Below, one piece after another: positions 25,566 to 51,436 of a stretch of 64,000 nucleotides of DNA. The position numbers and the translations under genes are program-made. Source of the DNA: Noviherbaspirillum saxi (GTDB lineage: Bacteria; Pseudomonadota; Gammaproteobacteria; Burkholderiales; Burkholderiaceae_D); contig NZ_QYUO01000003.1 of the NCBI RefSeq assembly GCF_003591035.1, positions 248,001-312,000 of the forward strand, in the 5' to 3' direction. The first letter of the stretch is position 1. Each line of letters begins with the position of its first letter. The notes below the pieces were generated by a model. The model was not told where the DNA came from. It saw only the letters and a program-made list of their open reading frames with translations, and made no database searches.

Positions 25566-25580
25566 ACGTGTCCTCGGTTG

Positions 25581-26910: not shown

Positions 26911-26924
26911 TCCCCGATCCTCTG

Positions 26925-28453: not shown

Positions 28454-28456
28454 GCT

Positions 28457-28590
28457 TAAAGCGGTTTGACGTCGCATGCAAGGGAGCCGAGGTCGGGTCG
28501 AGAAGCCCTTGCTACACCAACCGTACGTGAGGTACGGTGAGCATCGCAGGCCCGAGATCGGTCCCTTTCATGCGACGGCAAACTGCTCTA
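28457..28590. repeat. Palindromic intergenic element, family B copy 2
   Basis: The left arm TAAAGCGGTTTGACGTCGCA pairs with TGCGACGGCAAACTGCTCTA at the right, and the arms extend inward with mismatches. The centre is CCGTAC-gtgag-GTACGG. It ends at 28590, one base from the TGA stop (28592-28594) of the enoyl-CoA hydratase gene. The architecture (TAGAGC ends, GTAC centre) matches 25581-25704. Confidence 0.5.
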
Positions 28591-28591
28591 A

Positions 28592-31318: not shown

Positions 31319-31342
31319 CGAGCGCTGCGCTCTTTCAAATTT

Positions 31343-31368
31343 GCTCCGGCTATACACCGGAGCTTTTT
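31343..31368 (+). terminator. Intrinsic terminator after the acyl-CoA ligase gene
   Basis: GCTCCGG-ctataca-CCGGAGC is followed at once by TTTTTCTTT, 25 bases past the ligase stop codon. It is a classic rho-independent terminator on the plus strand. Confidence 0.85.
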
Positions 31369-31491
31369 CTTTGCCTATTACCGGAGAAAAGTCCGAAAAA
31401 AATCCCGCTTCCCTTGCGGGTCGCGGGCAAAGTCAATCACACTTGGATTGGGGAGACAAAATGGCTATTAGATAAAGAGGCTGATGCCGGC

Positions 31492-32736
31492 TCAAGCGCG
31501 CGCGAATATCCCGACGTGTTCGGTGGATTCCTCGACACGCCACAAGCCGCCGCCATTGCCCTGCAGCGCAATGCGCGCCCCGTCGACCTGGCGCTTGCCG
31601 CAGTTGCCGCGCAACTGCTCGACCAGCTCGAAGATCTGGCCGATGCCGGTGGCGCCGATCGGATGCCCCTTCGATTCCAGGCCGCCCGACGGATTGACCG
31701 GCAGCTTGCCGCCGAGGGCGCTGTCGCCGCGCTCGGCCATCACCCCCGACTGCCCCGGCGCGCACAGGCCCAGCGCTTCGATCGACAGCAGCTCGCCGAT
31801 CGCGGTCGCATCGTGCACTTCGGCCACGTCGACATCCTTGGGACTGATGCCGGCTTGTTCGAATGCCGCCTTGCCCGCCAGATGGGTGCAGCCCTGGTCG
31901 AAGTCATCGGCCGCGCGCGCCGAGGCCGACCGCACCACGGAGGCCAGCACCTTGATCGCGCGGCGCTTGTCGAAACCATATTTCTCCAGCGCCGACTCGG
32001 TGCACACGATCGCGGCCGCCGCGCCGTCGGAGATCGGCGAACACATCGGCAGCGTGATCGGATAGGTGATCGGCGGCGCGGCCAGGATTTCCTCGATGCT
32101 CATCGCGTTGCGGTATTGCGAACGCGCGTTGTGCACCGAATGGCCGTGGTTCTTCGACGACACGGCTGCCAGCTGGCGCTGGGTGATGCCGAAGCGCTCC
32201 ATCAGGCCGCCACGGCCCAGGGCCGCATACACGTCCATGAACGGGCTGTACGGCTTGGGCGACTGCGAACCCTCCGGCGGCACGATGCTCTTGCCCATCG
32301 CCGCCAGGTAATGCTTGTTGTCTTCGAAGGTTTCGATGTCCCACGCCGATTCGAAGGCCGAGAACATCTTGGCCTTGTCGCTGTAGAACATCTTTTCCGC
32401 ACCGACGGCAATCGCCACGTCGGCCGCACCGGCCTTGAGCTGGGTGACGGCCAGGTTGAACGCGTGGCTGGACGAGGCGCAGGCGCCTTCGAGGTTGTAG
32501 ATCGGGATGCCGTCCAGGCCCAGCGGCAACAGCGCCACCTGGCCGCGGATCATGTGCTGGCCATCGAAGTGGCCTTGTGTGCAGTTGCCGTAGAACGCAG
32601 CCTGGATGTGCTTGCGGTCGCAGCGGGCATCCTGCAAGGCGTCTTCCACCGCCCAGGCGGTCAGTTGCTTGACAGTCTTGTCGGTGTGGCGGCCGAACGG
32701 CGTCATGCCGACGCCGACGATGTAAATGTTTTCCAT
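31492..32736 (-). CDS. Second SCP2-type thiolase-like protein
   Basis: The start at 32736 is the ATG of MENIYIVGVGMTPFGRHTDK; the frame continues upstream only through repeat sequence. The 414-residue protein has Cys86 in NLEGACASSSHAF, VAEVHDATAIGELLSIEALG in place of the usual HDCF block, and KGHPIGATGIGQIFELVEQL. It is related to the thiolase at 26925-28103 but clearly a different subfamily (HDA instead of HDC). Such non-identical thiolases in sterol pathways may cleave different chain lengths or act as aldolase-type partners. It is preceded by an enoyl-CoA hydratase gene in the same direction. Confidence 0.88.
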   Translation of the reverse strand: MENIYIVGVGMTPFGRHTDKTVKQLTAWAVEDALQDARCDRKHIQAAFYGNCTQGHFDGQHMIRGQVALLPLGLDGIPIYNLEGACASSSHAFNLAVTQLKAGAADVAIAVGAEKMFYSDKAKMFSAFESAWDIETFEDNKHYLAAMGKSIVPPEGSQSPKPYSPFMDVYAALGRGGLMERFGITQRQLAAVSSKNHGHSVHNARSQYRNAMSIEEILAAPPITYPITLPMCSPISDGAAAAIVCTESALEKYGFDKRRAIKVLASVVRSASARAADDFDQGCTHLAGKAAFEQAGISPKDVDVAEVHDATAIGELLSIEALGLCAPGQSGVMAERGDSALGGKLPVNPSGGLESKGHPIGATGIGQIFELVEQLRGNCGKRQVDGARIALQGNGGGLWRVEESTEHVGIFARA

Positions 32737-32762
32737 AATGAGTCCTTGAAAAAGTTGGGACT

Positions 32763-32870
32763 CCCCTCTCCCGCAGGCGGGAGAGGGGTGGGGGGTGAGG
32801 GTGTTTGCAAGGGAGACTGGCTTGACAAGCCCCCTCATCCCCAACCCTTCTCCCGCCTGCGGGAGAAGGG
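32763..32870. repeat. Pair of dispersed CTCCCGC hairpins in inverted order
   Basis: Two hairpins, 32763-32788 (CCCCTCTCCCGC/GCGGGAGAGGGG) and 32845-32870 (CCCTTCTCCCGC/GCGGGAGAAGGG), frame GGGGTGAGGG and CCCCTCATCCCC, which also pair with each other. The composite fills the gap between the hydratase and thiolase genes. A single copy lies at 21511-21536. Confidence 0.6.
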
Positions 32871-32878
32871 AGCAAGAA

Positions 32879-33655
32879 TCAATAGCCCTTGAAGTCGGGC
32901 GTGCGCTTTTCGGCGAACGCGCGCAAGCCTTCGGCCATGTCGTACGAGCGCTGGTGGTTGCGCAGCGCCAGCACTTCGTGGCGCAGCGCATCGGCCACCG
33001 ACTTGTCGGCCGCTTCATTGGCCACTTTCTTCATGTTGCGCAACACCAGCGGGCTCTTCCTGGCCAGCTTGTCGCCAATCGCCTGCACGCGATCAACCAG
33101 TTCGCCATCGGCCACCACTTCGCTGACCAGGCCATAGGTTTTCATGTCCGCCGCCGGCAAGGCATCGCCGGTGAACAGCAGGTACATCGCGATGTTGTGC
33201 GGGATCTTGCGCGGCAGCACGGCCGCGCCGCCACCGCCCGGGAACACGCCGAAGTTCGAATGCGCATCGCCGAACTTGGCGCTGTGCGCCGCGATCACGA
33301 AATCGCAGCACAGCACCGCTTCCATGCCGCCAGCCAGCGCCAGGCCGTTGACGGCCGCGATCACCGGCTTGGGGAATGCGCACAGCAGGTCGAAGAACAC
33401 CACGATGGTGTCCAGGAAATCCGGTTCGCCCGGCTGCGGCGCACCGCCGGCGGCTTTGAGGTCGGCGCCGGCGCAAAAGGCCGGGCCGGTGCCAGTCAGC
33501 ACCACCACGCGCACGGCCTCGTCGTCTTGCCAGTTGCGCAACTGCGCAGTCATGTCGACGAACATGTCGCGGCTCAAGGCATTCATCGCCTTGGGGCGGG
33601 TCAGCGTGATCCAGCCAACCTGGCCCTTCACCTCGAAAGATACGTTTTCGCTCAT
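32879..33655 (-). CDS. Enoyl-CoA hydratase/isomerase family protein
   Basis: The ATG at 33655 follows GAGGAGAAAA. The 258-residue crotonase-fold protein has GPAFCAGADLKAAGG and the oxyanion segment AVNGLALAGGMEAVLCCDFV, then FGDAHSNFGVFPGGGGAAVL, where hydratases usually carry a catalytic Glu. It is one of two crotonase-like enzymes in the locus and is linked to the second thiolase gene. A role in shortening a branched or ring-derived acyl-CoA is inferred. Confidence 0.88.
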   Translation of the reverse strand: MSENVSFEVKGQVGWITLTRPKAMNALSRDMFVDMTAQLRNWQDDEAVRVVVLTGTGPAFCAGADLKAAGGAPQPGEPDFLDTIVVFFDLLCAFPKPVIAAVNGLALAGGMEAVLCCDFVIAAHSAKFGDAHSNFGVFPGGGGAAVLPRKIPHNIAMYLLFTGDALPAADMKTYGLVSEVVADGELVDRVQAIGDKLARKSPLVLRNMKKVANEAADKSVADALRHEVLALRNHQRSYDMAEGLRAFAEKRTPDFKGY

Positions 33656-36356: not shown

Positions 36357-37529
36357 CTAATGCGTTTTCACCAACCGGAAGCCCAGGTGCGACATGCTGT
36401 TGTACGGGTCGGTCCCGCGCCGCGCACTGGGCCGGTAACTCAGGCAGTAGTCTTCATTACAGAGAAAAGAGCCGCCGCGCGTCACGCGCCGCGGCGCGTT
36501 CTCCGGCACGCCGGGCTCACTCGGGTCCCATGAACCCGATGGCCCTGCCGGGTTGTCGAGTGTTTTGCGCGCACGCGCGTCGCGTTGGAATTGATCGGCG
36601 CGATACCAGTCGGCCACCCATTGCCAGGCGTTGCCGGTCATGTCATACAAGCCATAACCATTGGCCGGAAAGGTGCCGACCGGGCTGGTGCCCAAGGCGC
36701 CGCCGGCCTTGGGACTGATCACGGGAAAGGCTTGCGCCTGTTGTCCCTGCCAGACATTGGCCATTTGCTTGCCGCCCGGCGCGAACTGGTCGCCCCAGGC
36801 GTAGGTCGCCTGCTCCAGTCCGCCGCGTGCGGCGTATTCCCACTCCGCTTCGGTGGGCAGGCGCTTGCCGATCCACTGCGCGTAAGCCTGTGCATCCTCA
36901 TACGACACTTGCACCACCGGATGATCGTCCTTGCCGTCGATGGAACTGCCGGGACCGTTCGGATGGCGCCAGTCCGCACCTGGCACATAGCGCCACCATT
37001 GTGAATAATCCTGCAGGGGCACCGGACGGGCGGTGCCGACGAACACCATCGCGCCGGCCACCAGCGCACTGTCCGGCGGCTGCAGCGTACCGGGCGGCAG
37101 CTGGGCTTTCAAGGTTTCCCAGTCCGGCTTCCTTTCCGCCGTGGTGACATAGCCGGTGGCGTCGACAAACTGGCGGAACTCGGCATTGGTGACATGATGC
37201 CGGTCCATCCAGAAGCCGTGCACGCGTACCTTATGGGCGGGACGCTCATTGGGCTGCGCAAGCTGATGGTCGCTGCCCATGCGGAACTCGCCGGCAGGAA
37301 TGTAGACCATGCCTTTCAGACCGTGGATGCCATCGCCCAGCACGACCACAGGAGGATGCGTCTGCGCGGATTCAGCGTGCCAAGAGAAGAAGGCAAGCCC
37401 CCCCGCCCCTGTGCCGCATGCCAGCAGCGCCGCCAATACGCCGCGCCGGAAGCGGGACGCTCGACGCGCTTGAGGAGGTATTTTTGCTTCCATGGGCAAT
37501 GACTTTTGCCTGCGTTGATGGCGCTCCAT
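36357..37529 (-). CDS. Formylglycine-generating enzyme (sulfatase maturation)
   Basis: The ATG at 37529 follows GAAGGAGAACG; another in-frame ATG lies at 37565. The 390-residue protein has an N-terminal membrane anchor (about 30-50) and an FGE-sulfatase domain: VYIPAGEFRMGSD, LPTEAEWEYAARGG, NAWQWVADWY and GGSFLCNEDYCLSYRPSARR. The two active-site cysteines (357 and 362) have the same spacing as Cys336/Cys341 of human FGE, and RRGT...HLGFRL follows. This is therefore a true converter of sulfatase Cys to formylglycine, not just an FGE-fold protein. The next gene downstream on this side is an arylsulfatase with a CTAGR motif, its obvious client. Confidence 0.92.
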   Translation of the reverse strand: MERHQRRQKSLPMEAKIPPQARRASRFRRGVLAALLACGTGAGGLAFFSWHAESAQTHPPVVVLGDGIHGLKGMVYIPAGEFRMGSDHQLAQPNERPAHKVRVHGFWMDRHHVTNAEFRQFVDATGYVTTAERKPDWETLKAQLPPGTLQPPDSALVAGAMVFVGTARPVPLQDYSQWWRYVPGADWRHPNGPGSSIDGKDDHPVVQVSYEDAQAYAQWIGKRLPTEAEWEYAARGGLEQATYAWGDQFAPGGKQMANVWQGQQAQAFPVISPKAGGALGTSPVGTFPANGYGLYDMTGNAWQWVADWYRADQFQRDARARKTLDNPAGPSGSWDPSEPGVPENAPRRVTRGGSFLCNEDYCLSYRPSARRGTDPYNSMSHLGFRLVKTH

Positions 37530-37628: not shown

Positions 37629-39233
37629 TCATTCCTGCTTGCGCCTTATTCCCTGCAAGAATTCCTGAACCAGGTTCGAGCGATCGAACGACTTCGAGCC
37701 TTGTACCGGCGGATAGTCCGCCAGCGACTTCAAGTGCGTGCCGATAATCTCGCCCATCGGTCCGCCCAGCCAGGCCGCCTTCTGGATCAGATGGCCGTAG
37801 GAGTCCTTGCTGTCATAGCTTTCGAACGGATCGCTGCGCAGGTTGAACAGGAGCGGCATGGTGCGCGGCACCAGGTTGGCGTAGTAGTCTTCCTTGGTCG
37901 AGAAGTGGAACTTCCATGGTCCCATCCGAATCGCGGTCAACTTGTTTTCGAAGTAGTACAGGATGTGGCTGCGCGCGCTTTCCGGCGACTTGCCCGTCCA
38001 GTAGTCGAGATTGTTCACGCCGTCGATGACTTGCTTCTTCTCCGTCTTCATCCGTTCGACCACTTCCGGCACGCCCGCGGCGGCGGAAAAAGTGGTGAAC
38101 ATATCCTGATGCCCCTGGATGCCGTTCTTGATCTGGCCGGACTTGATGGCGCCGGGCCAGCGCAGCATCGACGGTACCCGCACCCCGCCTTCGTAGGTCG
38201 TCATCTTCTCGCCGCGGAATGGGGTCGTGGCGCCGTGCGGCCATGAGGCATGTTCGGGACCGTTGTCGGTGGAGTACCAGACGATGGTGTTCTTGTCGAG
38301 GCCGTTCTGCTTGAGGAAATCCAGCACCAGCCCGATATCGTGATCGTGCTGTAGCATGCCGCTGCCCTGGGTGTCGTCCTCATGCGTGTGCTTCGCCGCG
38401 GCGTTGCGCCACTTGTCGTTGAGGTGGGTGTACAAGTGCATGCGCGTCGTATTCAGCCAGACGAAGAAGGGCTTGCCTTCCTTCTTGGACTGCCGCATGA
38501 AGTCGGTTGCCCTGGGAATCAGCTCCGCCGCATCGAAATCTTCCATCCGCTTCATGGTGAGTGGACCGGTATCCTCGATCGTCTGCTTGCCGATACGCCC
38601 GAAGCGCGGATCGACCGTCGGGTCGTCCTTGTCAGTCGCAAACGAATGCAACACGCCACGGGTTGCGAATTTCTGTGCGAACGCTTTGGGACCGCCGGGA
38701 TACTTTTCGGCGTACGACTTGTAGTCCTGGTACTCGTGCATTTCCTCGGTGTTGAGGTGATAGAGGTTGCCGTAGAACTCGTCGAAGCCGTGCACGGTCG
38801 GCAGGTTGGGATTGTTATCCCCCAGGTGGTTCTTGCCGAACTGGCCGGTGCGGTAGCCGACCTTCTTCAATACTTCCGCCAAACTCGGCGAAGCGGCCTG
38901 GATGCCGAGCTTGTCGCCAGGCTGCCCGACGGTGGTCATGCCGGAACGGATCGGATACTGGCCAGTGATGAACGCAGCGCGGCCGGCCGTGCACGATGGT
39001 TGCGCGTAATGATCGGTGAAGCGGATGCCTTCCGTCCCGATTTTGTCGATATTGGGCGTGGTGTAGCCCATCACCCCCATGCCATAGGCGCTCACGTTTT
39101 GCCAGCCGATGTCGTCGCCCCAGATGACGAGGATGTTCGGCTTGTCCTGCTGGGCAGCATGTGCCGACAGCGGCGCTGCAAGCACGATGGCTGTTCCGAG
39201 CAGGGTCAGCATGCGTTTCATTTGCTTGATCAT
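37629..39233 (-). CDS. Arylsulfatase, periplasmic
   Basis: The 534-residue protein has a signal peptide (cleavage after SAHAA). The metal-binding [10 protein letters not shown] comes next, then Cys81 in [10 protein letters not shown], the residue to be converted to formylglycine. Later come [12 protein letters not shown] and [15 protein letters not shown], further active-site and metal ligands. The enzyme hydrolyses organic sulfate esters and releases the alcohol. It is encoded about 100 bases before the formylglycine-generating enzyme on the same strand, and after a thioesterase and an HpsN-like gene. The true start may be the ATG of MKRMLTLL. Confidence 0.93.
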
Positions 39234-39251: not shown

Positions 39252-39695
39252 TTAAACCGTGTTGGTTGCCAGTGGCGCAAGCGCTGCGCGCATTACCTCC
39301 GTCAAGGAGGCAGGGCGGCGCGTTTCGCGATCGACGTAGACGTGCACAAAGTGCCCTTGTGCCGCCGCTTCGGTCTCGCCTTCGCGGAACAGTCCGATGT
39401 CGTAGCGCACGCTCGACGAACCGAGTCGCGTCACACGCAGTCCGGCATCGATACGCTCCGGAAAAGCGATCGAAGAAAAATAATTGCATTGCGTCTCGAC
39501 CACCAGACCGATCGTCGGGCTGTTGCCAAAATCGAGTACGTCGTTGCGCAGCAGGTACTCGTTGACGACGGTGTCGAAGTAGCTGTAATAGACGACGTTG
39601 TTGACGTGGGCATAGACATCGTTGTCCATCCAGCGCGTCGCGATCTGCAGGAAATGGGGGTATGCGTCGCGCAGCGCCGCTTCTGATTTTTTCAT
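39252..39695 (-). CDS. Hot-dog acyl-CoA thioesterase (4HBT/FcbC type)
   Basis: The 147-residue protein starts at the ATG at 39695. It has the 4HBT motif TRWMDNDVYAHVNNVVYYSY with the catalytic Asp, then TQCNYFSSIAFPERIDAGL. This group hydrolyses small acyl-CoA thioesters to free acid. The gene is 18 bases upstream of the sulfatase and in the same direction, so the sulfatase unit also includes a CoA-ester step. Confidence 0.9.
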   Translation of the reverse strand: MKKSEAALRDAYPHFLQIATRWMDNDVYAHVNNVVYYSYFDTVVNEYLLRNDVLDFGNSPTIGLVVETQCNYFSSIAFPERIDAGLRVTRLGSSSVRYDIGLFREGETEAAAQGHFVHVYVDRETRRPASLTEVMRAALAPLATNTV

Positions 39696-39725
39696 TTGCA
39701 ATTACCTGTCACGTTTTCTGTCGAT

Positions 39726-39772: not shown

Positions 39773-41062
39773 TCAGGCCGCCTTCTTCTTGCCGTAGCGA
39801 CGCACGCGGATGTCCGCCTGCTCCTTGTGGCCGGCAAAACCTTCAATCGCGCACAGGCGCGAGCAGTATTCGCCGATCATGGCCGACGCCTCATCGGTCG
39901 TCACGCGCTGATAGGTGCAGGTCTTGATGAACTTGCCGACCCACAGGCCGCCGGTGTAGCGCGCCGCCTTACCGGTAGGCAGCGTGTGGTTGGTGCCGAT
40001 GACCTTGTCGCCGTACGACACGTTGGTGCGATGGCCGAGGAACAGCGCGCCATAGTTCGTCATGTTGTGCAGGAAGTAGTCCGGGTCCTTGGTCATCACT
40101 TGCACGTGCTCGGACGCGATGCGATCCGCCTCTTTCACCATTTCTTCGTACGAATCGCACAGGATGATTTCGCCGTACTCTTCCCATGCCACGCGGGCGA
40201 TCGGCGCCGTCGGCAGCTTTGCCAGCTGGCGCTCGATTTCGGCGGGTACCGTCTCGGCCAGCGCACGGCTGTTGGTCAAGAGGATGGCGGGCGAATTCGG
40301 GCCGTGCTCAGCCTGACCCAGGAGGTCGGCCACCGCCAGTTCGGCGTCGCAGGTGTCGTCGGCAATGATCAGCGTCTCGGTCGGACCGGCCAGCAGGTCG
40401 ATGCCGACGCGGCCGAACAACTGGCGCTTGGCTTCCGCGACGAAAGCATTGCCCGGACCGACGATCATGTCGACCGGTTCGATTTGCTCGGTGCCCAGCG
40501 CCATCGCAGCGATGGCTTGCACGCCACCCATGCAATAGATTTCATCGGCGCCGGCCAGGTGCATCGCGGCGACAATCGCCGGCGAGGGTTTGCCTTCGAA
40601 TGGCGGCGCAGCGGCGATCACGCGCTTGACGCCGGCGACCTTGGCGGTCAGCACGCTCATGTGGGCCGACGCGACCAGCGGATACTTGCCGCCCGGGATG
40701 TAGCAACCCACGCTGTTGACCGGCAGGTTCTTGTGGCCGAGCACCACGCCCGGCAAGGTTTCGATCTCGATGTCGCGCAGCGCGCTTTTCTGGATCTGTG
40801 CGAAGCGCTTGATCTGCTCCTGCGCGAAGCGGATGTCGATCAACGCCTCTTCCGACAGCGAAGCGATGCAGGCGTCGATTTCTTCCTTGGAGAGACGAAA
40901 GCTGGCCGGGGTCCACTTGTCGAACTTGGTCGAATAATCGCGCACGGCCGCGTCGCCGCGCTTGGCGATATCGTCCAGGATGTTGGTGACGGTGTCGCGC
41001 ACCTGGGCGTTGATTTCCGCTTTCACTTCTTGCGGCTTCGATGTTTTCAGATAGATAGCCAT
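39773..41062 (-). CDS. Histidinol-dehydrogenase-family enzyme, HpsN-like
   Basis: The 429-residue protein belongs to the HisD family. The NAD-binding and active-site blocks are seen: [40 protein letters not shown], zinc ligands in [11 protein letters not shown], the catalytic Glu-His in [11 protein letters not shown] and the terminal His in [10 protein letters not shown]. The rest of the histidine operon is absent, so histidine synthesis is unlikely. The sequence resembles sulfopropanediol 3-dehydrogenase (HpsN), which oxidises dihydroxypropanesulfonate to sulfolactate. Other members use different alcohols. A LacI regulator gene lies 54 bases upstream. Confidence 0.85.
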
Positions 41063-42438: not shown

Positions 42439-42529
42439 CAATAGCACCGCTATTGACGCCTCCTGCGCCTTACCAGGCGAAAGAATCCATCGATTTCCTC
42501 TGTCACGTTGCAGGCCGGGACTGGTATTA
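42439..42529. repeat. Palindromic intergenic element, family C copy 2 (partial)
   Basis: From CAATAGC-acc-GCTATTG (42439-42455) to GGTATTAA, the sequence follows the right half of the element at 34024-34181 with about three quarters identity (shared blocks TGCGCCTT and AATCCATC). The left half is not recognisable. Its end holds the TAA stop of the TetR gene (42527-42529). Confidence 0.55.
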
Positions 42530-43204
42530 ATCCGGAGTCGTCAACAGCGCATGCAGCATGCGGGCGAGCAGGAGCGGTGTGTCCGGCTCGCCCAGATATT
42601 CGGGCTTCATCAGACCCATCGCACGCGGCAGAGCCAAAATGGTCTGGTAGACCAGAAACCGTGCCTTTTCACGGTTGCGCACCAGGATCTCGTCAGGAAA
42701 TCGCTCCATCAAGGCATTCGTTGCCACGGACGTCCAGGTGAATTCCGGCTTGACGAGATCCAGGCGGACCAATTCCTCGTAATGGGAAGAACGGGTGAAA
42801 AATTCCCGGTCGACCTGCGACCATTTGTGCAGCAGCGCAATGCCGATCTGCATGATCAATAGGACGCCGTCGAACAGCTTTGCCGAGGGCGGCAGCGCCC
42901 TAAGCTCTTCCACCAGCCGACGGCGTGCTTGCCCGCGGTAGTCCTCGAAGATCGCGGTGATCAGCGCTTCTATGGTCGGGAAGTATTCGTAGATGGAGCT
43001 GACTGCTACGCCGGAACGCAGCGATAGACGATCCAGCGACAAGGCATCGCGCCCTTCTTTCTCCAGGATGTCCCATCCCGTTTTCTTGAGGGCATCCACC
43101 AGCATGACCGAACGTTCCTGGCGCGGACGCTTGCGCGGCTTGGCAGGCAATTCGATATGCAGGATGTCATCGCCTGCAGGTTTTTTTCGGATGTACTTGG
43201 TCAT
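42527..43204 (-). CDS. TetR-family transcriptional regulator
   Basis: The 225-residue protein has an N-terminal TetR helix-turn-helix (LDRLSLRSGVAVSSIYEYFP) and a helical ligand domain. A basic N-terminal arm (KPRKRPRQERS) precedes the DNA-binding part. It is divergent from the LuxE/LuxC/alcohol dehydrogenase/alkylsulfatase genes across a 321-base gap holding a perfect palindrome (43346-43357). It is most likely a repressor released by a fatty acid, acyl-CoA or alcohol. Confidence 0.9.
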   Translation of the reverse strand: MTKYIRKKPAGDDILHIELPAKPRKRPRQERSVMLVDALKKTGWDILEKEGRDALSLDRLSLRSGVAVSSIYEYFPTIEALITAIFEDYRGQARRRLVEELRALPPSAKLFDGVLLIMQIGIALLHKWSQVDREFFTRSSHYEELVRLDLVKPEFTWTSVATNALMERFPDEILVRNREKARFLVYQTILALPRAMGLMKPEYLGEPDTPLLLARMLHALLTTPD

Positions 43205-43345
43205 GAGTCTTTATGCATGAATACAAGCAGCAAGAATAATCGAAGACAGACCAGAGAAACCTGGCTTGCCGATGTGCAATGCTGAAAATCAAATACGGAG
43301 ATATGCCTTGAGCCATAGGCGAAAATTCGCAATTTCCTTTTTTAT

Positions 43346-43357
43346 TCAAGTACTTGA
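43346..43357. promoter_or_regulatory. TetR-type operator candidate
   Basis: TCAAGTACTTGA is a perfect 12-base palindrome in the gap between the divergent TetR and LuxE-like genes, 142 bases from the TetR start. Confidence 0.45.
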
Positions 43358-43430
43358 GTGCTCTCCAAGCGAAGACCGAATCCGGAGAGAAATTTGCGCT
43401 TTCGCTCTCTATACTGACCTCGCAAAAACA

Positions 43431-43452
43431 CGTTGCCGCTACGACGGCAACG
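43431..43452 (+). promoter_or_regulatory. Leader hairpin before the LuxE-like gene
   Basis: CGTTGCCG-ctacga-CGGCAACG is a perfect 8-bp stem about 75 bases before the start codon at 43526. It could shape the 5' leader RNA or be a second protein site. The rest of 43205-43525 shows no gene. Confidence 0.4.
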
Positions 43453-43525
43453 ACGCTGCTCTATGCCCATGCCGGCACGTCTGTTGATTGCCGGGATATC
43501 CACCACTTCGATTAGCGAGTTACCC

Positions 43526-44965
43526 ATGTCCCTTGCGGAAATGTCAATCGAGAAAAAAGCCGAACTGCTGCTGAACAATCCGATAGCGCTGGCCGACTAT
43601 AACTACCGCACCTGGCAACACTTACCGCGCGCCGAGCTTGATGCCGTCAAGCTCGAAGCCTTGAAGCAGCGCTTTGCCGCACTGCGCAACCGCATTCCGG
43701 TCCTGAAAAAACTCGCCGATGGCGAAGGCATCGAACAGATAGAGAAGTTCGACGATGTAGTGCCGCTCTTGTTCGAGCACACGGTCTTCAAATCCTATCC
43801 GCCCTCCCTGTTGGAAAAAAAGAACTTCACGCAGATCAACAAGTGGATCGGCAAGCTGGTGACGCCGGAGTATGCCGAAGCCATCGCCGCCGCCGACGTC
43901 AGCAGCTGCAAGGGGCTGGACGATTGGTTCGACACGATGGACCAGGCAGTGCCGCAAGTGCGCATCTGCCATACCTCCGGCACTTCCGGCACTCTGTCCT
44001 TCCTGCCCAACAGCGTGCGCGAATGGGAAAAGGCATGCGACGTGCGCAAGCTGTTCGTGTGGAAGATGGAGGGCCCGAACACGCCGCAACCGGACCTGCA
44101 TACCGTCTACCCGTATTACCGCAAAGGCTATCTCTCTCACGTGCGCGCCAACGACTTCATGATTCAGGCGTTGCTGCCCGACGAATCGAATTTCCATGCC
44201 GCCTACCCGGCGACGCTCTCTTCCGACGTGCTGCACCTGGGCGCGAAACTGCGCGCCGCGCATGCCAAGGGTACGCTGGATCGTCTGGACATCAGCCCGG
44301 AAATGATCGAGAAGAAAAAGGCGTTCGACAAGCTGCAGGCCGAGATGCCGAAGCATCTGGCAGGCTTCTTCGAAGAGATGGCGACCAAGCTCAAGGGCAA
44401 GCGCGTGTATATCGGCGCGACCTGGAACCTGCTGCACAACATGGCCAAGGCCGGCCTCGAGCGCGGCCTGGAAGGCGTGTTCCACCCCGACTCCTACATC
44501 ACCACCACCGGCGGCGCCAAGGGCGTGGTGCAGCCGGAGGGCTGGCGCGAGGATGTGATGCGCTTCACCGGCGTCAAGACGCTCAACGAGACCTACGCGA
44601 TGTCGGAACTGGTGAGCGGTTCGAACCCGCGTTGCGAGCACGGCCACTTCCATTTCACGCCGACCGTGATCCCCTTCCTGCTCGACCCGGAAACCAGCAA
44701 GCCGCTGCCGCGCGAAGGCCGCGTCACCGGCCGCGCCGCTTTCTACGACTTGGGCGCCGACATCCACTGGGGCGGCTTCATCACCGGCGACGAAATCACG
44801 GTCGAATGGGATAAACCTTGCGCATGCGGCCGCCCGAGCGCCTATGTGGCCGGTCCGATCCAGCGCTATAGCGAAAAGAACGGCGGCGACGACAAGATCA
44901 CCTGCGCCGCGACCGAAGGTTCGCACCGCGAGGCCATGGACTTCCTGAACAATATCGAAGGCTAA
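43526..44965 (+). CDS. LuxE-like acyl-protein synthetase / acyl-activating enzyme
   Basis: The protein is about 479 residues from the ATG at 43526 (ribosome site weak; the frame is open to 43433). The nucleotide-binding block CHTSGTSGTLSFLPNS is the LuxE/ANL form of the ATP loop, and TLNETYAMSELVSGSNPRCE resembles the adenylate-binding motif. A CACG pair near the end may bind metal. LuxE activates a fatty acid as acyl-AMP and passes it to LuxC. A LuxC-like gene follows after five bases, so the pair should work as one complex. No luxA or luxB is present, so light production is excluded. Confidence 0.85.
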   Translation: MSLAEMSIEKKAELLLNNPIALADYNYRTWQHLPRAELDAVKLEALKQRFAALRNRIPVLKKLADGEGIEQIEKFDDVVPLLFEHTVFKSYPPSLLEKKNFTQINKWIGKLVTPEYAEAIAAADVSSCKGLDDWFDTMDQAVPQVRICHTSGTSGTLSFLPNSVREWEKACDVRKLFVWKMEGPNTPQPDLHTVYPYYRKGYLSHVRANDFMIQALLPDESNFHAAYPATLSSDVLHLGAKLRAAHAKGTLDRLDISPEMIEKKKAFDKLQAEMPKHLAGFFEEMATKLKGKRVYIGATWNLLHNMAKAGLERGLEGVFHPDSYITTTGGAKGVVQPEGWREDVMRFTGVKTLNETYAMSELVSGSNPRCEHGHFHFTPTVIPFLLDPETSKPLPREGRVTGRAAFYDLGADIHWGGFITGDEITVEWDKPCACGRPSAYVAGPIQRYSEKNGGDDKITCAATEGSHREAMDFLNNIEG

Positions 44966-44970
44966 ATACC

Positions 44971-46434
44971 ATGACAAAACCCATTGCGCCGATGATCATC
45001 CGCGGCAAAGTCATCACCGACAACCTGATCGAAGTCGGCGGCCGCGGCGGTGACATCTCTTTCCTGACGCCGGATGCGCACAAGTACATCGACAAGCTAC
45101 CGCTGGGCAATCCGGCCAAGCTGGCCGACCTGTACCAGCTCAGCTTCGACGACATCCTCGATTACGCGGTCGAACTGGGCAAGCATCTGGACTTCAGCAA
45201 GAACAAGTACCTGCAAGAAGCTTGCGAGCTGTCCTACCTGACCGCGCCGACCACGCCGACCATCGTCAAGGCGTCCTATATGGGCCTGCACAACATGCTG
45301 TCGCGCGAGTTCATCACCGAGATGGCGGAAAAGACGGTCGGCATCAAGTACCTGGAAGGCTGGGTCAAGGAGAAGCTGCTCGACGGCACCGAACTCGAAG
45401 TACGCTGCTTCGGCGCGCGCACCCTGCACATCGTGGCCGGCAATGCTGTCAGCCTGTCGCTCTGGACCATCATCCGCAACATGGTGCTGCGCAGCGACGC
45501 CATCATCAAGGCGCCGTCCAACGATCCGTTCACCGCGCTCGCGATTGCCCGCACCATGATCGACATGGCGCCGGACCATCCGATCACCAAGCACTTGAGC
45601 GTGGCTTACTGGAAGGGCGGCGACCAGGCCTTCGAACAGCGCTTGTACCAGCCGCAGAACCTGGAGAAGATCGTGGCCTGGGGCGGCTTCGCGGCGATGA
45701 AGCACGTTACCCAGTACATCCAGCCCGGCCTGGAACTGATCTCCCTCGATCCGAAACGCAGCGCCAGCATCATCGGCAAGGACACCTTCGACAGCGAAAC
45801 GTCCATGCGCGAAGCCGCGGTGCGCCTGGCCGCCGACATCGGCGCCATCAACCAGAAGGGTTGCGTATGCGCACGCGTGATCTACGTGCAGAGCGGCACC
45901 GATGAGGAAGGCCTGGAAAAGCTGAACACCTTCGGTCGCTACGTCTACGACGCCATGATGGCCCTGCCGAATGTCCTGTCCACCAAGCCCAAGCGCTACG
46001 ACCAGAAACTGAAAGCAGAAGTAGACGCGCTGCGCCTGGACGACGAGTGGTACAAGGTCATCGGCGGCAAGGATGGTGAAGGTGCCATCATCTGTTCTCA
46101 GATTCCGGAGGCCGTATCCTTCGCCGCCAGCCTGGACGATCGCACTGCCAACCTGGTGCCGGTGGATTCGCTCGACGAGATGATGGCTGCGGTCGATGCT
46201 TATACACAAACCGTCGGCGTCTATCCGGAGAGCGTAAAGGATGAACTGAAAGACATCCTGCCCTTGTACGGCGCACAGCGCATTGTGTCGCTGGGTTACG
46301 CGGCTGCGATGAAGTTTGCAGCCCCGCAGGATTCGATCGAGCCGATGCGCCGCATGGGCAAGTGGATCTCCAACCAGATTGCATCGCCGGAAACCACGGC
46401 GGCGCCCTGGTTGCGCCAGTCGATCGAGATGTAA
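44971..46434 (+). CDS. LuxC-like acyl-CoA reductase
   Basis: The 487-residue protein belongs to the LuxC family, a branch of the aldehyde dehydrogenase fold. The cofactor region HIVAGNAVSLSLWTIIRNMV and the catalytic Cys region GAINQKGCVCARVIYVQ are visible. It should reduce an activated acyl group to aldehyde with NADPH; the reverse, aldehyde to acyl-enzyme, is also chemically possible. Its gene follows the LuxE-like gene by five bases and precedes an alcohol dehydrogenase gene. The set can interconvert acid, aldehyde and alcohol. Confidence 0.87.
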   Translation: MTKPIAPMIIRGKVITDNLIEVGGRGGDISFLTPDAHKYIDKLPLGNPAKLADLYQLSFDDILDYAVELGKHLDFSKNKYLQEACELSYLTAPTTPTIVKASYMGLHNMLSREFITEMAEKTVGIKYLEGWVKEKLLDGTELEVRCFGARTLHIVAGNAVSLSLWTIIRNMVLRSDAIIKAPSNDPFTALAIARTMIDMAPDHPITKHLSVAYWKGGDQAFEQRLYQPQNLEKIVAWGGFAAMKHVTQYIQPGLELISLDPKRSASIIGKDTFDSETSMREAAVRLAADIGAINQKGCVCARVIYVQSGTDEEGLEKLNTFGRYVYDAMMALPNVLSTKPKRYDQKLKAEVDALRLDDEWYKVIGGKDGEGAIICSQIPEAVSFAASLDDRTANLVPVDSLDEMMAAVDAYTQTVGVYPESVKDELKDILPLYGAQRIVSLGYAAAMKFAAPQDSIEPMRRMGKWISNQIASPETTAAPWLRQSIEM

Positions 46435-46500
46435 CGATCCGCTTTTATCCCTCCTCGCGCTAGCGAGCACTTTTGTTCAATTTTCCACCTCTCTCACCCC

Positions 46501-46582
46501 CGTCATCCCCGCGAAGGCGGGGATCCATACGGAGTTTGCTATATCCTCCGGCTTTTGGATCCCCGCCTGCGCGGGGATGACG
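46501..46582. repeat. Inverted repeat with GTCATCCCCGCG arms (dispersed type)
   Basis: CGTCATCCCCGCGAAGGCGG (plus GGATCCA) and its inverted copy at the right end, TGGATCCCCGCCTGCGCGGG (plus GATGACG), enclose about 30 bases. Each arm is itself a hairpin (CCCCGC..GCGGGG). Such GTCAT(C/T)CCCGC units are common dispersed repeats in proteobacteria. It fills the gap between the LuxC-like and alcohol dehydrogenase genes and may end or attenuate the first transcript. Confidence 0.6.
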
Positions 46583-46645
46583 GGGAAATTAATGTGAGAA
46601 ATCGACCTCGGCTACCCGCCTCAACATTATTCAAGGATCAATCAC

Positions 46646-47707
46646 ATGACCACCTGCACAGCCTATGGCGCTTGCGAAGCGCACGCCGATCTCACCCAGA
46701 TGCACATCGAGCGCCGCGCCCTGCGTCCCGACGATGTCGCCATCTCCATCGCCTACTGCGGCGTCTGCCACTCCGACGCGCACCAGGTCCACAACGACTG
46801 GGGCAACACCGTCTACCCCTGCGTGCCCGGTCATGAAATCATCGGCCACGTCACCGCCGTCGGCCCGCAGGTAACGAAATACAAGGTGGGCGACCGCGTC
46901 GCGGTCGGTTGCATGGTCGACAGCTGCCAGCATTGCGCGCCCTGCGAAGACGGCCAGGAACAGAATTGCGTCAATGGCTTGACCGCCACCTATAACGGCA
47001 AGGATCGCCACACCGGCGCAATCACGTACGGCGGCTACTCGGAAAGCATCGTGGTGCGCGAAAAGTTCGTGCTGCGCGTGCCGGACGCGCTTGACCCGCG
47101 CTATGCCGGTCCGCTCTTGTGCGCCGGCATCACGGTGTGGACACCGATGCGCAAGCACGGGGTGCGCAAAGGTTCAAAAGTGGCGGTCGTCGGCTTGGGC
47201 GGCTTGGGCCACATGGGTGTCAAACTTGCCGTCGCGCTGGGCGCCGAAGTCACCGTCATCACGACTTCGCCGAGCAAGGCCGACGATGCGCGTGCACTGG
47301 GTGCGCATCATGTGCTGCTGTCGAGCGATCCCAAGGCGATGATGACCGCGGCCAATGCCTTCGACTTTATCCTCGATACCATCCCGACCAAGCATAACGT
47401 CAACCCGTATCTGATGCTGCTGGGGCGCAACGGCGTGCTAGTGCTGGTCGGTGCCATCGAGCCGCTGGAGCCGATCCATGGCGGACTGTTGATGCGCAAC
47501 AACCGCTCCATCGCCGGTTCGCTGATTGGCGGCATCGAAGATACTCAAGAGCTGCTGGACTTCTGCGCCGAGCACAATGTGTTGCCCAATTGCGAGATGG
47601 TCGATATCCGCGACATCAACACGGCGTTCAAGCGTATGCAGGCCAACGATGTGAAATACCGTTTCGTGATCGATATGACATCGCTGGGGGAAGCCGCGTC
47701 TGCCTGA
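46646..47707 (+). CDS. Zinc-dependent alcohol dehydrogenase (AdhC/YahK group)
   Basis: The 353-residue MDR enzyme has catalytic zinc ligands in YCGVCHSDAHQ and GHEIIGHV, four structural-zinc cysteines in CQHCAPCEDGQEQNC, and the NAD(P) motif VVGLGGLGHMGVKLA. The sequence is close to the cinnamyl-alcohol/YahK group, which prefers NADPH and broad aldehydes. Next to LuxC and the alkylsulfatase, it would interconvert long-chain alcohol and aldehyde. Confidence 0.93.
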   Translation: MTTCTAYGACEAHADLTQMHIERRALRPDDVAISIAYCGVCHSDAHQVHNDWGNTVYPCVPGHEIIGHVTAVGPQVTKYKVGDRVAVGCMVDSCQHCAPCEDGQEQNCVNGLTATYNGKDRHTGAITYGGYSESIVVREKFVLRVPDALDPRYAGPLLCAGITVWTPMRKHGVRKGSKVAVVGLGGLGHMGVKLAVALGAEVTVITTSPSKADDARALGAHHVLLSSDPKAMMTAANAFDFILDTIPTKHNVNPYLMLLGRNGVLVLVGAIEPLEPIHGGLLMRNNRSIAGSLIGGIEDTQELLDFCAEHNVLPNCEMVDIRDINTAFKRMQANDVKYRFVIDMTSLGEAASA

Positions 47708-47867
47708 TGCGGCCGCGTAGCGCATGCGTTTGCCCTGTGCAAACGTCTCGGGCGATTGCCCCTCTCCAAAAGAGGGGCGCAACTGCAAGCAGGCATATAT
47801 ACCTTGTGATGAAATGGCCGCGAGGCGCGGTCCACATTATCAAGTCACTATCAAGAGAGATATCACA

Positions 47868-49883
47868 ATGACACGAGACGCCATTCGCGCCGGTGTTGCC
47901 TTGTCCGCCCGCAATACCATCCTGGCAACGGCACTGGTTTTCATTTTCGGGGCCAACGCCGTTGCGGACAATGTCCCTGCGCCGCAAATGCAAACCAAGC
48001 CAGCCAGCACCTCCACCGCTGCCAGGAATGCCGCCGTATTGCAGCAGTTGCCATTCGCCGACCGCGAAGATTACGAATCGGTCAAGCGTGGCTTGATTGC
48101 ATCGTACAAGGGCGAGATCAAGGCTGCCGATGGCCGCGTCGTGTGGAACATGCAGGCATACGATTTCCTTCAGGCTGACAAGAGCCCAGATACGGTGAAT
48201 CCCAGTTTGTGGCGCCAGGCCCAACTGAATGCGAATGCCGGATTGTTTCAGGTCACCGATCGCCTCTATCAGGTGCGCGGACTCGACCTGGCGAACATGA
48301 CCATCATCGAAGGCAGCAAGGGCTTAATCATCATCGATCCTCTGATGACGACGGAAACCGCGCGCGCGGCGCTCGAGCTCTATTACCAGCATCGGCCGAA
48401 AAAACCGGTGGTCGCGGTGATCTATTCGCACAGCCACATCGACCATTTCGGCGGCGTGCGCGGCGTGGTGGACGAAGCCGATGTCAAGGCCGGCAAGGTC
48501 AAGATCTATGCGCCGGCCGGCTTCATGGAAGAAGCAGTCAGCGAGAACGTGTTTGCGGGCACCGCGATGCTGCGCCGCGGGCAGTATCAGGGTGGCTCCC
48601 TGCTGCCGCGCGGCGAGCACGCTCACGTGGACACCGGCATCGGCAAGGGCACGCCGCAGGGCGGAACCGTCACTCTGATCGCGCCGACCGTGCTGCTGAC
48701 CAAGCATTATGAAACGCATCGCATCGACGGTCTCGATATCGAGTTCCAGTTGACGCCCGGCACCGAAGCGCCAGCGGAAATGAACCTGTACCTGCCGCAG
48801 CTCAAGGCCCTGTGCATGGCCGAGAACGCCACCCACACGATGCACAATATCCTGACGCCGCGCGGCGCGCTGGTGCGCGACGCCAAGGCCTGGGGCAAGT
48901 ACATCGATGACAGCCTGGTGCGCTACGGTGACAAGGCCACGGTGCTGTTTGCCCAGCACAACTGGCCGACCTGGGGCGGCGAACGCATCCGCACAATGCT
49001 GGCCGACCAGCGCGACATGTACACCTTCCTGAACGACCGCACGCTGCACCTGTTGAACCAGGGTCTCACGCCGATGGAAATCGCCGAGGCAATGCAGAAA
49101 CTGCCGGGCGAGCTGGAAACCAAGTGGAGCACACGCGGCTACTACGGCACGCTCAGCCACAATTCGCGCGCGGTGTATCAGCGCTATCTGGGCTTTTATG
49201 ACGCCAATCCAGCCAGCCTCAATCCTCTGTCACCGGTCGAAGCCGGCAAGCGCTATGTGGAAGCATTGGGCGGCGCGGCCAACGTGCTCAAACTGATGCG
49301 TAGCGCGATGGACAAGGGCGACTACCGCTGGGCCGTGCAGCTGGGCAATCACCTGGTTTTCGCCGAACCTGAGAACAGGGAGGCGCGTGCAGCACAAGCC
49401 GACACGCTGGAGCAGTTGGGCTATCAAGCCGAGAGCTCGCTGTGGCGCAACATCTATCTAAGCGGCGCGGCAGAACTGCGCAACGGCGTGCAGGCACAGA
49501 AAGGCATGCGCAGCACCGTCGACCTGGTCAAAGCACTGGAGCCGGGCATGTTCTTCGACTTCATGGCAGTGCGCCTGGATTCCAATAAGGCGGTGGGCCA
49601 TGACATGGCGCTCAACTGGGTGTTCTCCGACCTGAAGAAGCCGTTCGCACTGACCTTGCGCAATGGCGTGCTGACCTATCGCGAGGGTAGCAAGCATGCA
49701 AAGGCTGATGCAACAATCACCATGAGCAAGGCCACGCTCGATCGCATCAACCTGCGCCAGATCGACTTGCCCGCAGCGATCAAGCAAGGCGAGATCAAGA
49801 TCGAGGGCAACGGACAGAAACTGGGCGAGCTAATGGGCATGCTCGCCACGTTCAGTCCGTCCTTCAATATCGTCACGCCGTAA
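47868..49883 (+). CDS. SdsA-type alkylsulfatase (metallo-beta-lactamase fold)
   Basis: I start at the ATG at 47868 behind AAGAGAGATAT; the frame is open to 47724 without a ribosome site. The 671-residue protein has a signal peptide (ending AVADN). A metallo-beta-lactamase domain follows, with the zinc motif SHSHIDHFGG (His188, His190, Asp192, His193), then AENATHTMHNIL and AQHNWPTWGG. An alpha-helical dimer domain and a C-terminal SCP2-like domain come last. This is the full layout of SdsA1, which cleaves primary alkyl sulfates such as SDS to 1-alcohol and sulfate. The alcohol product is the natural substrate of the upstream dehydrogenase. Confidence 0.94.
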   Translation: MTRDAIRAGVALSARNTILATALVFIFGANAVADNVPAPQMQTKPASTSTAARNAAVLQQLPFADREDYESVKRGLIASYKGEIKAADGRVVWNMQAYDFLQADKSPDTVNPSLWRQAQLNANAGLFQVTDRLYQVRGLDLANMTIIEGSKGLIIIDPLMTTETARAALELYYQHRPKKPVVAVIYSHSHIDHFGGVRGVVDEADVKAGKVKIYAPAGFMEEAVSENVFAGTAMLRRGQYQGGSLLPRGEHAHVDTGIGKGTPQGGTVTLIAPTVLLTKHYETHRIDGLDIEFQLTPGTEAPAEMNLYLPQLKALCMAENATHTMHNILTPRGALVRDAKAWGKYIDDSLVRYGDKATVLFAQHNWPTWGGERIRTMLADQRDMYTFLNDRTLHLLNQGLTPMEIAEAMQKLPGELETKWSTRGYYGTLSHNSRAVYQRYLGFYDANPASLNPLSPVEAGKRYVEALGGAANVLKLMRSAMDKGDYRWAVQLGNHLVFAEPENREARAAQADTLEQLGYQAESSLWRNIYLSGAAELRNGVQAQKGMRSTVDLVKALEPGMFFDFMAVRLDSNKAVGHDMALNWVFSDLKKPFALTLRNGVLTYREGSKHAKADATITMSKATLDRINLRQIDLPAAIKQGEIKIEGNGQKLGELMGMLATFSPSFNIVTP

Positions 49884-50107: not shown

Positions 50108-51436
50108 ATGAGTCAAATCGAGCAGCTTTCGCCAGCGGCGGCGCATGCCCCAGCAACAGCAGCAGAAAACGTTTATCGCAAAGTCACCTGGCGGCTGATG
50201 CCCTATCTGCTTCTCGCCTGCGCGATCAATGCCATCGATCGCATGAATATTTCCTTCGCCAAGCTGCGCATGGCCGAGGACATCGCGTTGACCGACGCCG
50301 CTTTCGGTCTTGGCGCCGGCATCTTTTATCTCGGCTACATCCTCTTCGAAGTACCCAGCAATCTGTTTATGCAACGTATCGGTGCGCGTGCCACGCTGAC
50401 GCGAATCATGATGTTGTGGGGGGCGGTCACGGTGGCAACCGCCTTCGTCACTACACCGAATCAATTGATCGTTGCGCGTTTTTTCCTCGGCATGGCCGAG
50501 GCCGGCTTCTTCCCGGGCGTGATCCTGTATCTGACCTACTGGTTTCCTGCTGCGATGCGCGGCCGCATCACCGCGGTTTTCGTGATGGCAGGGGTTGTTG
50601 CCGGCGTCGTCAGCGGTCCGCTGGCGGGCTGGATCATGACCCACTTCCAGGGCTGGATGGGGCTGCGCGACTGGCAGGTGCTGTTCATATTCGAAGGTAT
50701 CCCAGCCATCGTGCTCGGTGTCTTCGGCTGGTTCTGGCTCACCGACAAGCCGGCGCAGGCTGCCTGGCTGAACGACTCGGAAAAAGAAACCATCGCTGCG
50801 GCACTGGCCGCCGAGTCGGGCAAAAGCGCAGCACACGGCGGTTTTGGCGAAGTGCTGCGCGATCCGAGGCTGTACATCGCCGGGCTGGTGTGCTTTTGCG
50901 TCTACAGCGGCATGAACACGGCCTCCTACTGGATGCCGACGCTACTGCGCAGCTTCGGCCTGGAAAGCTTGAAAACCATCGGCATGGTGTCCAGCCTGCC
51001 CTACCTCGGTGCCCTGATCGGCATGTACCTGCTCGGGCGCAGTTCCGACAAGCGCCAAGAGCGTCGCTGGCATCTTGCGTTGACCCTCCTGACGGGCGCG
51101 ACCTGCTTCTTCCTGCTCGGCTTTGCACAAGGCAATGTGCCGCTGTCGATATTCCTGCTGTGTCTCGGCACTGCGGGCGCGCTGTGCGGCATTTCGCTGT
51201 TCTGGACCATTCCTCCCGCCCTGCTCAGTCCTACCAAGGCGGCCGCCGGCATCGCTGTGATCAGCAGTATCGGCAACCTGGCTGCCGCGCTCAGCCAGTT
51301 CATGGTCGGCGCCATCAAATCGGCAACGGGAAGTTTGTACCTGGCCTTCGATGTGATTGCGGCCGTGCTGGTAATCGGTGCCATCGTGCTGCTGCTCGCG
51401 ATTCCGGCGCGGCATTTGCGCGAGCGCGAGCATTAA
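50108..51436 (+). CDS. MFS transporter, anion:cation symporter (ACS) type
   Basis: The 442-residue protein has twelve membrane segments. The N-terminal block YRKVTWRLMPYLLLACAINA-IDRMNISFAK is that of the ACS family (glucarate, tartrate, phthalate and allantoate carriers). AGSAMAEAGFFPG-like (FFLGMAEAGFFPGVILYLTY) follows. AAGAGGAGCAAC precedes the ATG. It stands after the alkylsulfatase and before a secreted esterase, so a carboxylate product made outside the cell could be the substrate. Confidence 0.9.
   Translation: MSQIEQLSPAAAHAPATAAENVYRKVTWRLMPYLLLACAINAIDRMNISFAKLRMAEDIALTDAAFGLGAGIFYLGYILFEVPSNLFMQRIGARATLTRIMMLWGAVTVATAFVTTPNQLIVARFFLGMAEAGFFPGVILYLTYWFPAAMRGRITAVFVMAGVVAGVVSGPLAGWIMTHFQGWMGLRDWQVLFIFEGIPAIVLGVFGWFWLTDKPAQAAWLNDSEKETIAAALAAESGKSAAHGGFGEVLRDPRLYIAGLVCFCVYSGMNTASYWMPTLLRSFGLESLKTIGMVSSLPYLGALIGMYLLGRSSDKRQERRWHLALTLLTGATCFFLLGFAQGNVPLSIFLLCLGTAGALCGISLFWTIPPALLSPTKAAAGIAVISSIGNLAAALSQFMVGAIKSATGSLYLAFDVIAAVLVIGAIVLLLAIPARHLREREH

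Follow-up and report, generated by a model that had tools for sequence, protein, structure and literature searches.

We analysed a 64,000-nucleotide stretch of the Noviherbaspirillum saxi genome (the window; C3:248001-312000 of genome G000), in which a LuxE-like gene, a LuxC gene and a zinc alcohol dehydrogenase (ADH) gene stand in a row behind a conserved promoter/operator element. The reading that we tentatively favour is that this operon belongs to a catabolic module centred on a free aldehyde, in which LuxE and LuxC would act as a two-protein carboxylate reductase and which would also comprise the ADH, an operator-defined regulon and accessory sulfatases. LuxE would adenylate a carboxylic acid at the expense of ATP and load the acyl group onto its C-terminal cysteine; LuxC would accept the acyl group on Cys298 and reduce it to the aldehyde with NAD(P)H; and the CAD/Ahr-type ADH would interconvert aldehyde and alcohol. 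The common operator would place under joint control the operon, a carrier of organic anions and a thiamine diphosphate (ThDP) enzyme that resembles benzoylformate decarboxylase. The ThDP enzyme may make or use the same kind of aldehyde and, in some strains, would be supplied with 2-oxo acids by an adjacent 2-hydroxyacid dehydrogenase. Sulfatases, either of the Pisa1 type or of the formylglycine type with a maturase, would form a dispensable front end that unmasks the hydroxyls of sulfate esters. The observations behind this reading are the gene content and its conservation, the predicted fold, the cysteines, and the operator with its genes.

Conservation and proteins of the LuxE-LuxC-ADH operon

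On the plus strand, the operon consists of genes for a LuxE-like acyl-protein synthetase (43526..44965), a LuxC-family acyl reductase (44971..46434) and a zinc ADH of the CAD/YahK/Ahr type with ADH_N/ADH_zinc_N domains (46646..47707). A Pisa1-type alkylsulfatase gene (47868..49883, plus strand) follows, and a TetR-family regulator gene (42527..43204, minus strand; PF00440 (TetR_N), 27.4 bits) is divergent from the operon. The order and strands of these five genes agree with an earlier interpretation made from the DNA letters alone (the sequence-only reading), as do the five bases between the LuxE stop (44965) and the LuxC start (44971). LuxE could start at TTG 43433, as in the list of open reading frames, or at ATG 43526; the ATG is the likelier start because it is kept in 7/7 aligned loci. 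LuxC and ADH are separated by 211 bases, in which a small inverted repeat, ATCCCCGC-N4-GCGGGGAT, occurs twice, at 46505-46524 and 46559-46578, with a spacing of 54 bases.

We compared 77 sequences, the loci among them numbered with an L, and genes in GC-rich loci were called by tblastn and a codon-usage caller. Forty-five core sequences carried a LuxC at least 76% identical to that of the window, and 32 were more distant. The core comprised the window, 36 of 65 loci, one of 48 matched plasmid records (four of which were read in detail) and seven loci from a draw of Pseudomonas genomes. L080 (71%), apparently on the same contig as L036, was counted as distant, and the Pseudomonas locus L033, in which the LuxC and ADH matches (10225-12636) seem interrupted in frame, was counted as bearing both. 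Several loci end at contig ends, where absences are not firm, and the Fisher statistics of co-occurrence ignore shared descent. LuxE lay directly 5' of LuxC in 43/45 core sequences, and about 5 kb away in L032 and L038. The ADH lay directly 3' of LuxC in 43/45 core sequences compared to 0/32 distant ones, and all three genes were consecutive in 41 of the 45. In both ADH exceptions the operator precedes the ADH gene: in L005 this gene is the first of an operon some 14 kb distant from the LuxE operator (L091), and in L040 it stands on another contig behind a sulfatase and a TetR gene (L088). A TetR relative was found within 6 kb of LuxC in 36/45 core sequences, and LuxE stood beside LuxC on the same strand in 30/32 distant sequences. 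Among 148 genomes, those of the organism and its relatives, the only strong LuxC match was its own, one other reaching 20% identity; LuxC proteins of 76-95% identity are present in Massilia, Pseudomonas, Paraburkholderia, Cupriavidus, Variovorax and Caballeronia. This patchy presence, together with high identity in other genera, fits horizontal spread of the module, as judged from distribution and identity.

LuxC falls within PF05893 (126.6 bits, cut-off 21) and is the sole protein of that family found at E 0.001 in the 6.5-Mb genome. Its Cys298 aligns to the cysteine of luminous LuxC that we take to be catalytic. For the LuxE-like frame, neither Pfam nor NCBIfam gave a match at E 0.001; Pfam returned three chance-level rows at E<=10, none of them PF04443, which we take to be the accession of the LuxE family. 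A profile of 27 LuxE-like members searched against solved structures matched a PaaK-type protein best (E 7.5e-6) and LuxE (7xc6_E) at E 0.0047. The protein has an ANL N-domain, lacks a PaaK-type C-domain and carries a cysteine close to its C-terminus, an architecture that we assume defines LuxE, with the cysteine presumably the acyl site. The ATP motifs and this cysteine (residue 460 from ATG 43526; 455 in a shorter numbering) are kept in 27/27 members. Fold alignments to BT_0428 and to PaaK1/2 chains stop at residue 330-339 of 422-433 resolved, and the alignment to HCL stops at 369-376; the LuxE-like protein ends about 25 residues past the end of the fold alignment, and the ANL C-terminal domain of about 100 residues, which serves CoA transfer, is absent. 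An ordinary PaaK CoA ligase is disfavoured because the C-domain is missing, though sequence profiles put PaaK first. No phage match for LuxE was found, and LuxE, like LuxC, is well conserved in many different genera.

Like luminous LuxC-LuxE (PDB 7xc6), the pair combines an ANL acyl-protein synthetase bearing a C-terminal cysteine with an acyl reductase bearing a conserved cysteine. In contrast to the luminous system, no LuxD, LuxA or LuxB gene was recognised beside it, its LuxC is only about 30% identical, and it is joined to an ADH in catabolic surroundings; its LuxE also gave no match to PF04443 and exceeds that of Photorhabdus by about 100 residues. The proposed conversion of acid, ATP and NADPH to aldehyde is that of carboxylic acid reductase (CAR), a single-chain enzyme, whereas the pair would use two proteins and a cysteine-bound instead of a phosphopantetheine-bound intermediate. 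The nearest solved relative of the ADH is YahK (366 bits), with plant CAD-like enzymes also near. It is of the same type as the YahK/Ahr aldehyde reductases but differs in its operon context and in scoring 324.6 bits against the Ahr NADPH aldehyde reductase model NF047908, below the cut-off of 470. Its Rossmann loop reads VITTSPSK, which by the rule we assume points to NADP(H), and the enzyme is probably NADP(H)-dependent.

An operator shared with a carrier and a ThDP enzyme

The regions upstream of LuxE share GAATCCGGA and, 21-24 bases on, a -10-like TANACT; this pattern, GAATCCGGA-N21..24-TANACT, was found via k-mers in these regions, and a palindrome search of intergenic regions gave nothing common to all loci. 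The conserved element of the window, GAATCCGGA-N23-TATACT (43378..43415, plus strand), is the single exact copy in its genome, and a near-match scan of the window returned this LuxE site plus one two-mismatch site at 61201. A slightly wider pattern, applied to 775 kb (36 core loci and the window), gave 27 sites, of which 24 precede LuxE, two precede LuxC in L032 and L038, where LuxE has moved away, and one precedes the major facilitator superfamily (MFS) gene of L012. The reversed box occurred 0 times in the same 775 kb.

In 34 genomes bearing the gene block, we found 33 exact copies, spread over 25 genomes, and no copy of the reversed pattern. The genes behind them, assigned by match to the core loci and by reading eight further stretches, were LuxE in 22 cases (including a fragment at the end of a contig), the MFS carrier in five, and LuxC, the ADH and the ThDP enzyme in two each. 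Because the pattern was derived from LuxE upstream regions, the 11 non-LuxE sites are independent evidence. Among 348 evenly drawn Pseudomonas genomes, the exact element was present in 8/16 LuxC-positive ones, of which five overlap the 34-genome set, compared to 3/332 LuxC-negative ones. The 11 copies in LuxC-positive genomes precede LuxE (7), the ThDP enzyme (2) and the MFS carrier (2), while the three in LuxC-negative genomes have none of these genes behind them within the stretch read; the reversed pattern occurred in five genomes, all LuxC-negative. Several LuxC-positive loci that lack an exact match have the box followed by a CATACT-like -10, and in a few (L015, L018 and L049 among them) the box was not seen before LuxE. 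We infer that the neighbouring TetR protein probably binds the element. Upstream of LuxE in L021, L026, L028, L077, L078 and L079, a second CCGGA box lies farther up, or the box is doubled.

The MFS carrier (50108..51436, plus strand, in the window) is a galactonate/HpaX-like organic-anion carrier, placed in that branch by models that score below their cut-offs, and its orthologs bear the operator in several other genomes. The ThDP enzyme has a benzoylformate decarboxylase as its nearest solved protein (135 bits); it scores 206 bits against the benzoylformate decarboxylase equivalog NF005485, below the cut-off of 493, and among NCBIfam models it matches PRK07586 best ('acetolactate synthase large subunit'; 753 bits, cut-off 363). 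It retains the histidine in LLHCGPG, which we take to be significant in such enzymes, and it is probably aldehyde-forming. Ten loci with this enzyme were read (L005/L091, L016, L017, L029, L060, L069, L089, L090, L092 and L112). A 2-hydroxyacid dehydrogenase directly adjoins it in four, of the FMN type in L016 and L092 and of the FAD GlcD type in L017 and L112. Since unrelated FMN and FAD enzymes are swapped here, a route from 2-hydroxy acid through 2-oxo acid to aldehyde is suggested, in those strains at least. The mandelate-type route likewise pairs a 2-hydroxyacid dehydrogenase with benzoylformate decarboxylase; it differs in that the genes described here are linked to LuxE-LuxC-ADH and, in some genomes, also to an HpsN-like dehydrogenase and sulfatases, and in that the ThDP enzyme scores just 135 bits to solved decarboxylases.

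A second, paralogous cluster lies in the same genome at C1:1838000-1855000 (L112) and holds two sulfatases, the GlcD-type enzyme, a short-chain dehydrogenase/reductase (SDR) and a TetR piece. Its ThDP enzyme, 82% identical to that of L016, stands behind a box with TATAAT, and further identities are 72% for the MFS carrier, 91% for the HpsN-like dehydrogenase and 85% for the thioesterase. LuxE and LuxC are not among the genes called in this cluster.

Sulfatases, neighbouring genes and the wider family

The sulfatase beside the operon has the Pfam domains Alkyl_sulf_dimr, Alkyl_sulf_C and Lactamase_B. It scored 973 bits with Pisa1, 719 with PSdsA, 682 with 7tl5, 659 with YjcS and 643 with SdsA1, the last of six sequences listed at E<=1e-50. 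The Pisa1 alignment spans 658 residues and the metal-site motif SHSHIDHFGG is common to both, a likeness of sequence and motif to a protein whose PDB title (2yhe, 4av7) says sec-alkylsulfatase. By sequence the enzyme is closer to Pisa1 than to SdsA1, and the SdsA-type primary alkylsulfatase of the sequence-only reading is rejected. The release of 1-alcohols that it had proposed is unsupported because the enzyme is Pisa1-like; we take Pisa1 to be inverting, to prefer secondary sulfates and to yield secondary alcohols. A start at 47868 is more likely than one at 47724, and the N-terminus from 47868 looks signal-peptide-like by eye. Between the sulfatase and MFS genes, a GC-rich inverted repeat seen by eye at 49930-49967 is possibly a terminator.

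A Pisa1-type sulfatase (>=63% identity) lies within 10 kb of LuxC in 15/45 core sequences compared to 0/32 distant ones; 29/45 core stretches, some cut by contig ends, show no alkylsulfatase of either kind. Formylglycine sulfatases or maturases occur in the window, L004, L012, L017, L031, L033, L049, L060 and L069. Counting any sulfatase or maturase, including the 51% sulfatase of L022, the proportions are 21/45 core and 1/32 distant, or 2/32 if a 27% metallo-beta-lactamase-fold match in the distant L065, left uncounted, is added. Across the 34 genomes, 12/24 Pisa1-type copies lie within 10 kb of LuxC compared to 1/44 other alkylsulfatases (68 rows of 42-91% identity, with fragments and weaker rows dropped, including a broken copy in G148), and the link to a sulfatase that the sequence-only reading drew is therefore real. 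In many Pseudomonas the sulfatase gene is upstream and separated by TetR, in the window it is downstream, in L025 it is downstream as well and convergent, and in L049 it is upstream and divergent; because gene order differs, the linkage has probably evolved on more than one occasion. The 348 Pseudomonas genomes include at least 16 with LuxC, at least 26 with a Pisa1-type sulfatase and at least seven with both, lower bounds with at most 3-4 candidates scored per genome. Given the 15/45 loci and this partial overlap, the sulfatase is a recurrent, favoured accessory partner and not part of the core. The expectation that the four genes would recur together in other genomes was borne out for LuxE, LuxC and the ADH, while the full set of four is rarer.

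On the minus strand lie a formylglycine-generating enzyme (36357..37349; PF03781, 288 bits), a formylglycine-type sulfatase (37629..39233; PF00884, 178 bits), which is a possible accessory and which the former presumably serves, and two possible pathway neighbours, a 4HBT thioesterase (39252..39701) and an HpsN-like dehydrogenase of the histidinol dehydrogenase family (39773..41062). The last scores 398 bits with the (R)-DHPS dehydrogenase HpsN and 283 with the best histidinol dehydrogenase among solved proteins, and the TIGR00069 hisD domain model also scores it (468 bits); by sequence it appears nearer HpsN. HpsN converts a terminal diol to a 2-hydroxy acid, and by analogy the product of the HpsN-like enzyme would feed the 2-hydroxy-acid route. 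Its gene lies within 10 kb of LuxC in 6/45 core sequences (the window, L005, L012, L017, L033 and L074).

A beta-oxidation-type cluster (14323..33655), several of whose members have orthologs near LuxC in other genomes, encodes MMPL and DUF1302/1329 proteins, a CaiB-type CoA transferase, an SDR, acyl-CoA dehydrogenases, SCP2-type thiolases, a full-length CoA ligase and enoyl-CoA hydratases. Its MMPL transporter, DUF1329 and DUF1302 genes occupy 14323-20956, and MMPL orthologs lie near LuxC in Pseudomonas. The sequence-only reading was right to place an orphan LuxE-LuxC pair with its ADH in a catabolic setting; it erred on the sulfatase type and missed the carrier and ThDP enzyme of the regulon. 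The gene lists of compact Pseudomonas loci, which were not searched at family level, show no aldehyde dehydrogenase; other loci have one (cluster c23, 7 loci). Wax ester synthase (WS/DGAT) genes stand near the operon in L029, L060 and L069, the other loci not having been surveyed. An Rfam search of the window from 36 to 55 kb matched nothing.

LuxE-LuxC pairs at 45-72% LuxC identity occur in Sphingomonadaceae, Paraburkholderia, Gammaproteobacteria, metagenome-assembled genomes of Myxococcota and Chloroflexota, a Mycobacterium avium plasmid and Sphingobium TomTYG plasmids. Several of these distant pairs adjoin SDR or aldo/keto reductase genes, and some adjoin P450, flavin monooxygenase, epoxide hydrolase or TonB receptor genes. 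Within this wider family, the operon with a CAD-type ADH seems to form a clade of its own. LuxC relatives were seen on 11 Sphingobium plasmids of the collection, and on that of Sphingobium sp. TomTYG46 (L070, 13545-16455) the pair lies amid GMC oxidoreductases, an SDR and TonB receptors. In L054, L056, L057, L066 and L067 (Paraburkholderia/Burkholderia), a conserved cluster of LuxE, LuxC and an SDR also contains a P450 and an oxidase that by eye is CrtI-like.

Direction of the proposed aldehyde chemistry and its meaning

The reactions, their direction and the class of substrate are what we infer from these genes. We lean modestly towards reduction over oxidation, since the LuxE-like proteins keep their ATP motifs and cysteine throughout. 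The NADPH-type look of the ADH, the SDR and aldo/keto reductases beside distant pairs, and the wax ester synthases point the same way.

Several observations weigh against this reading. An ATP-costly reduction is odd in a catabolic cluster, and as the 2-hydroxyacid/decarboxylase branch would deliver aldehyde, an oxidising sink is expected, a role that LuxC fits where compact Pseudomonas loci list no aldehyde dehydrogenase. The profile places the LuxE-like protein closer to PaaK CoA ligases than to LuxE, and LuxE is absent among the 50 matches listed in each of two fold searches. The regulon is also uneven: the window's own MFS gene has no operator, its genome carries the ThDP enzyme on another contig, that enzyme (>=75% identity) was found in at least 3/16 LuxC-positive Pseudomonas genomes, a lower bound, half of those 16 lack the exact operator, and 6/10 ThDP loci show no adjoining 2-hydroxyacid dehydrogenase.

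The strongest alternative, possible in our view though less probable, runs in the oxidative direction and is close to the sequence-only reading: the sulfatase would free an alcohol, the ADH would oxidise it to an aldehyde, LuxC would act as an acylating aldehyde dehydrogenase giving a thioester for beta-oxidation, and LuxE would reactivate free acid. The CoA ligase, acyl-CoA dehydrogenases and SCP2-type thiolases nearby are consistent with this, as are the association of sulfatases with the operon, the probably aldehyde-forming ThDP enzyme of the regulon and the lack of an aldehyde dehydrogenase in the gene lists of compact Pseudomonas loci. However, oxidation has no need of the invariant ATP motifs and C-terminal cysteine of LuxE, the window cluster already has a separate full-length CoA ligase, and a Pisa1-like sulfatase would presumably give secondary alcohols and hence ketones, not aldehydes. 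It is doubtful that the operon is no pathway step but a side-branch for aldehyde/acid homeostasis that travels along with catabolic gene clusters, leading from acid through aldehyde to alcohol, and in some strains to wax esters, for detoxification or storage. The wax ester synthases of three loci, the apparent NADPH-type reductase and the patchy distribution (at least 16/348 Pseudomonas genomes) suit such a role, whereas the operator ahead of the organic-anion carrier and the ThDP enzyme does not, and WS/DGAT genes were noted in those three loci, the ones surveyed for them. That the operon is a remnant of a bioluminescence operon, as LuxC and LuxE homology might suggest, is rejected as extremely improbable: as the sequence-only reading had noted, the window has no luciferase-family (PF00296) gene, the two matches of the genome being far away (C1:177806 and C3:1242697), LuxC is 30% identical to Photorhabdus LuxC and scores 137.4 bits against the luminous LuxC equivalog NF052251 (cut-off 750), and both proteins are conserved in many genera.

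A more specific and rather unlikely proposal is that the genes form a regulon, not recognised before, which serves sulfated 1,2-diols or sulfated 2-hydroxy acids, with LuxC/LuxE as a catabolic aldehyde/acyl switch. Two unrelated kinds of sulfatase would free the hydroxyl, the HpsN-like enzyme would form a 2-hydroxy acid, an FMN or FAD dehydrogenase would oxidise it to a 2-oxo acid, and the ThDP enzyme would release CO2 and a one-carbon-shorter aldehyde, which LuxC/LuxE and the ADH would then process. The operon would be one branch of an orphan LuxE-LuxC family found beside carbonyl reductases, P450s, flavin monooxygenases and epoxide hydrolases, whose clusters look suited to hydrophobic compounds. 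We know of no described LuxE-LuxC-ADH regulon. As the operator names a co-regulated carrier, an aldehyde-forming enzyme and a dehydrogenase, the substrate should be findable by induction. If the reading that we favour holds, the repeated occurrence of sulfatases beside LuxE-LuxC genes would be explained, a two-protein ATP-dependent carboxylate reductase would join the enzyme toolbox, and the LuxC-LuxE chemistry of bioluminescence would have a widespread second role in carbon catabolism.

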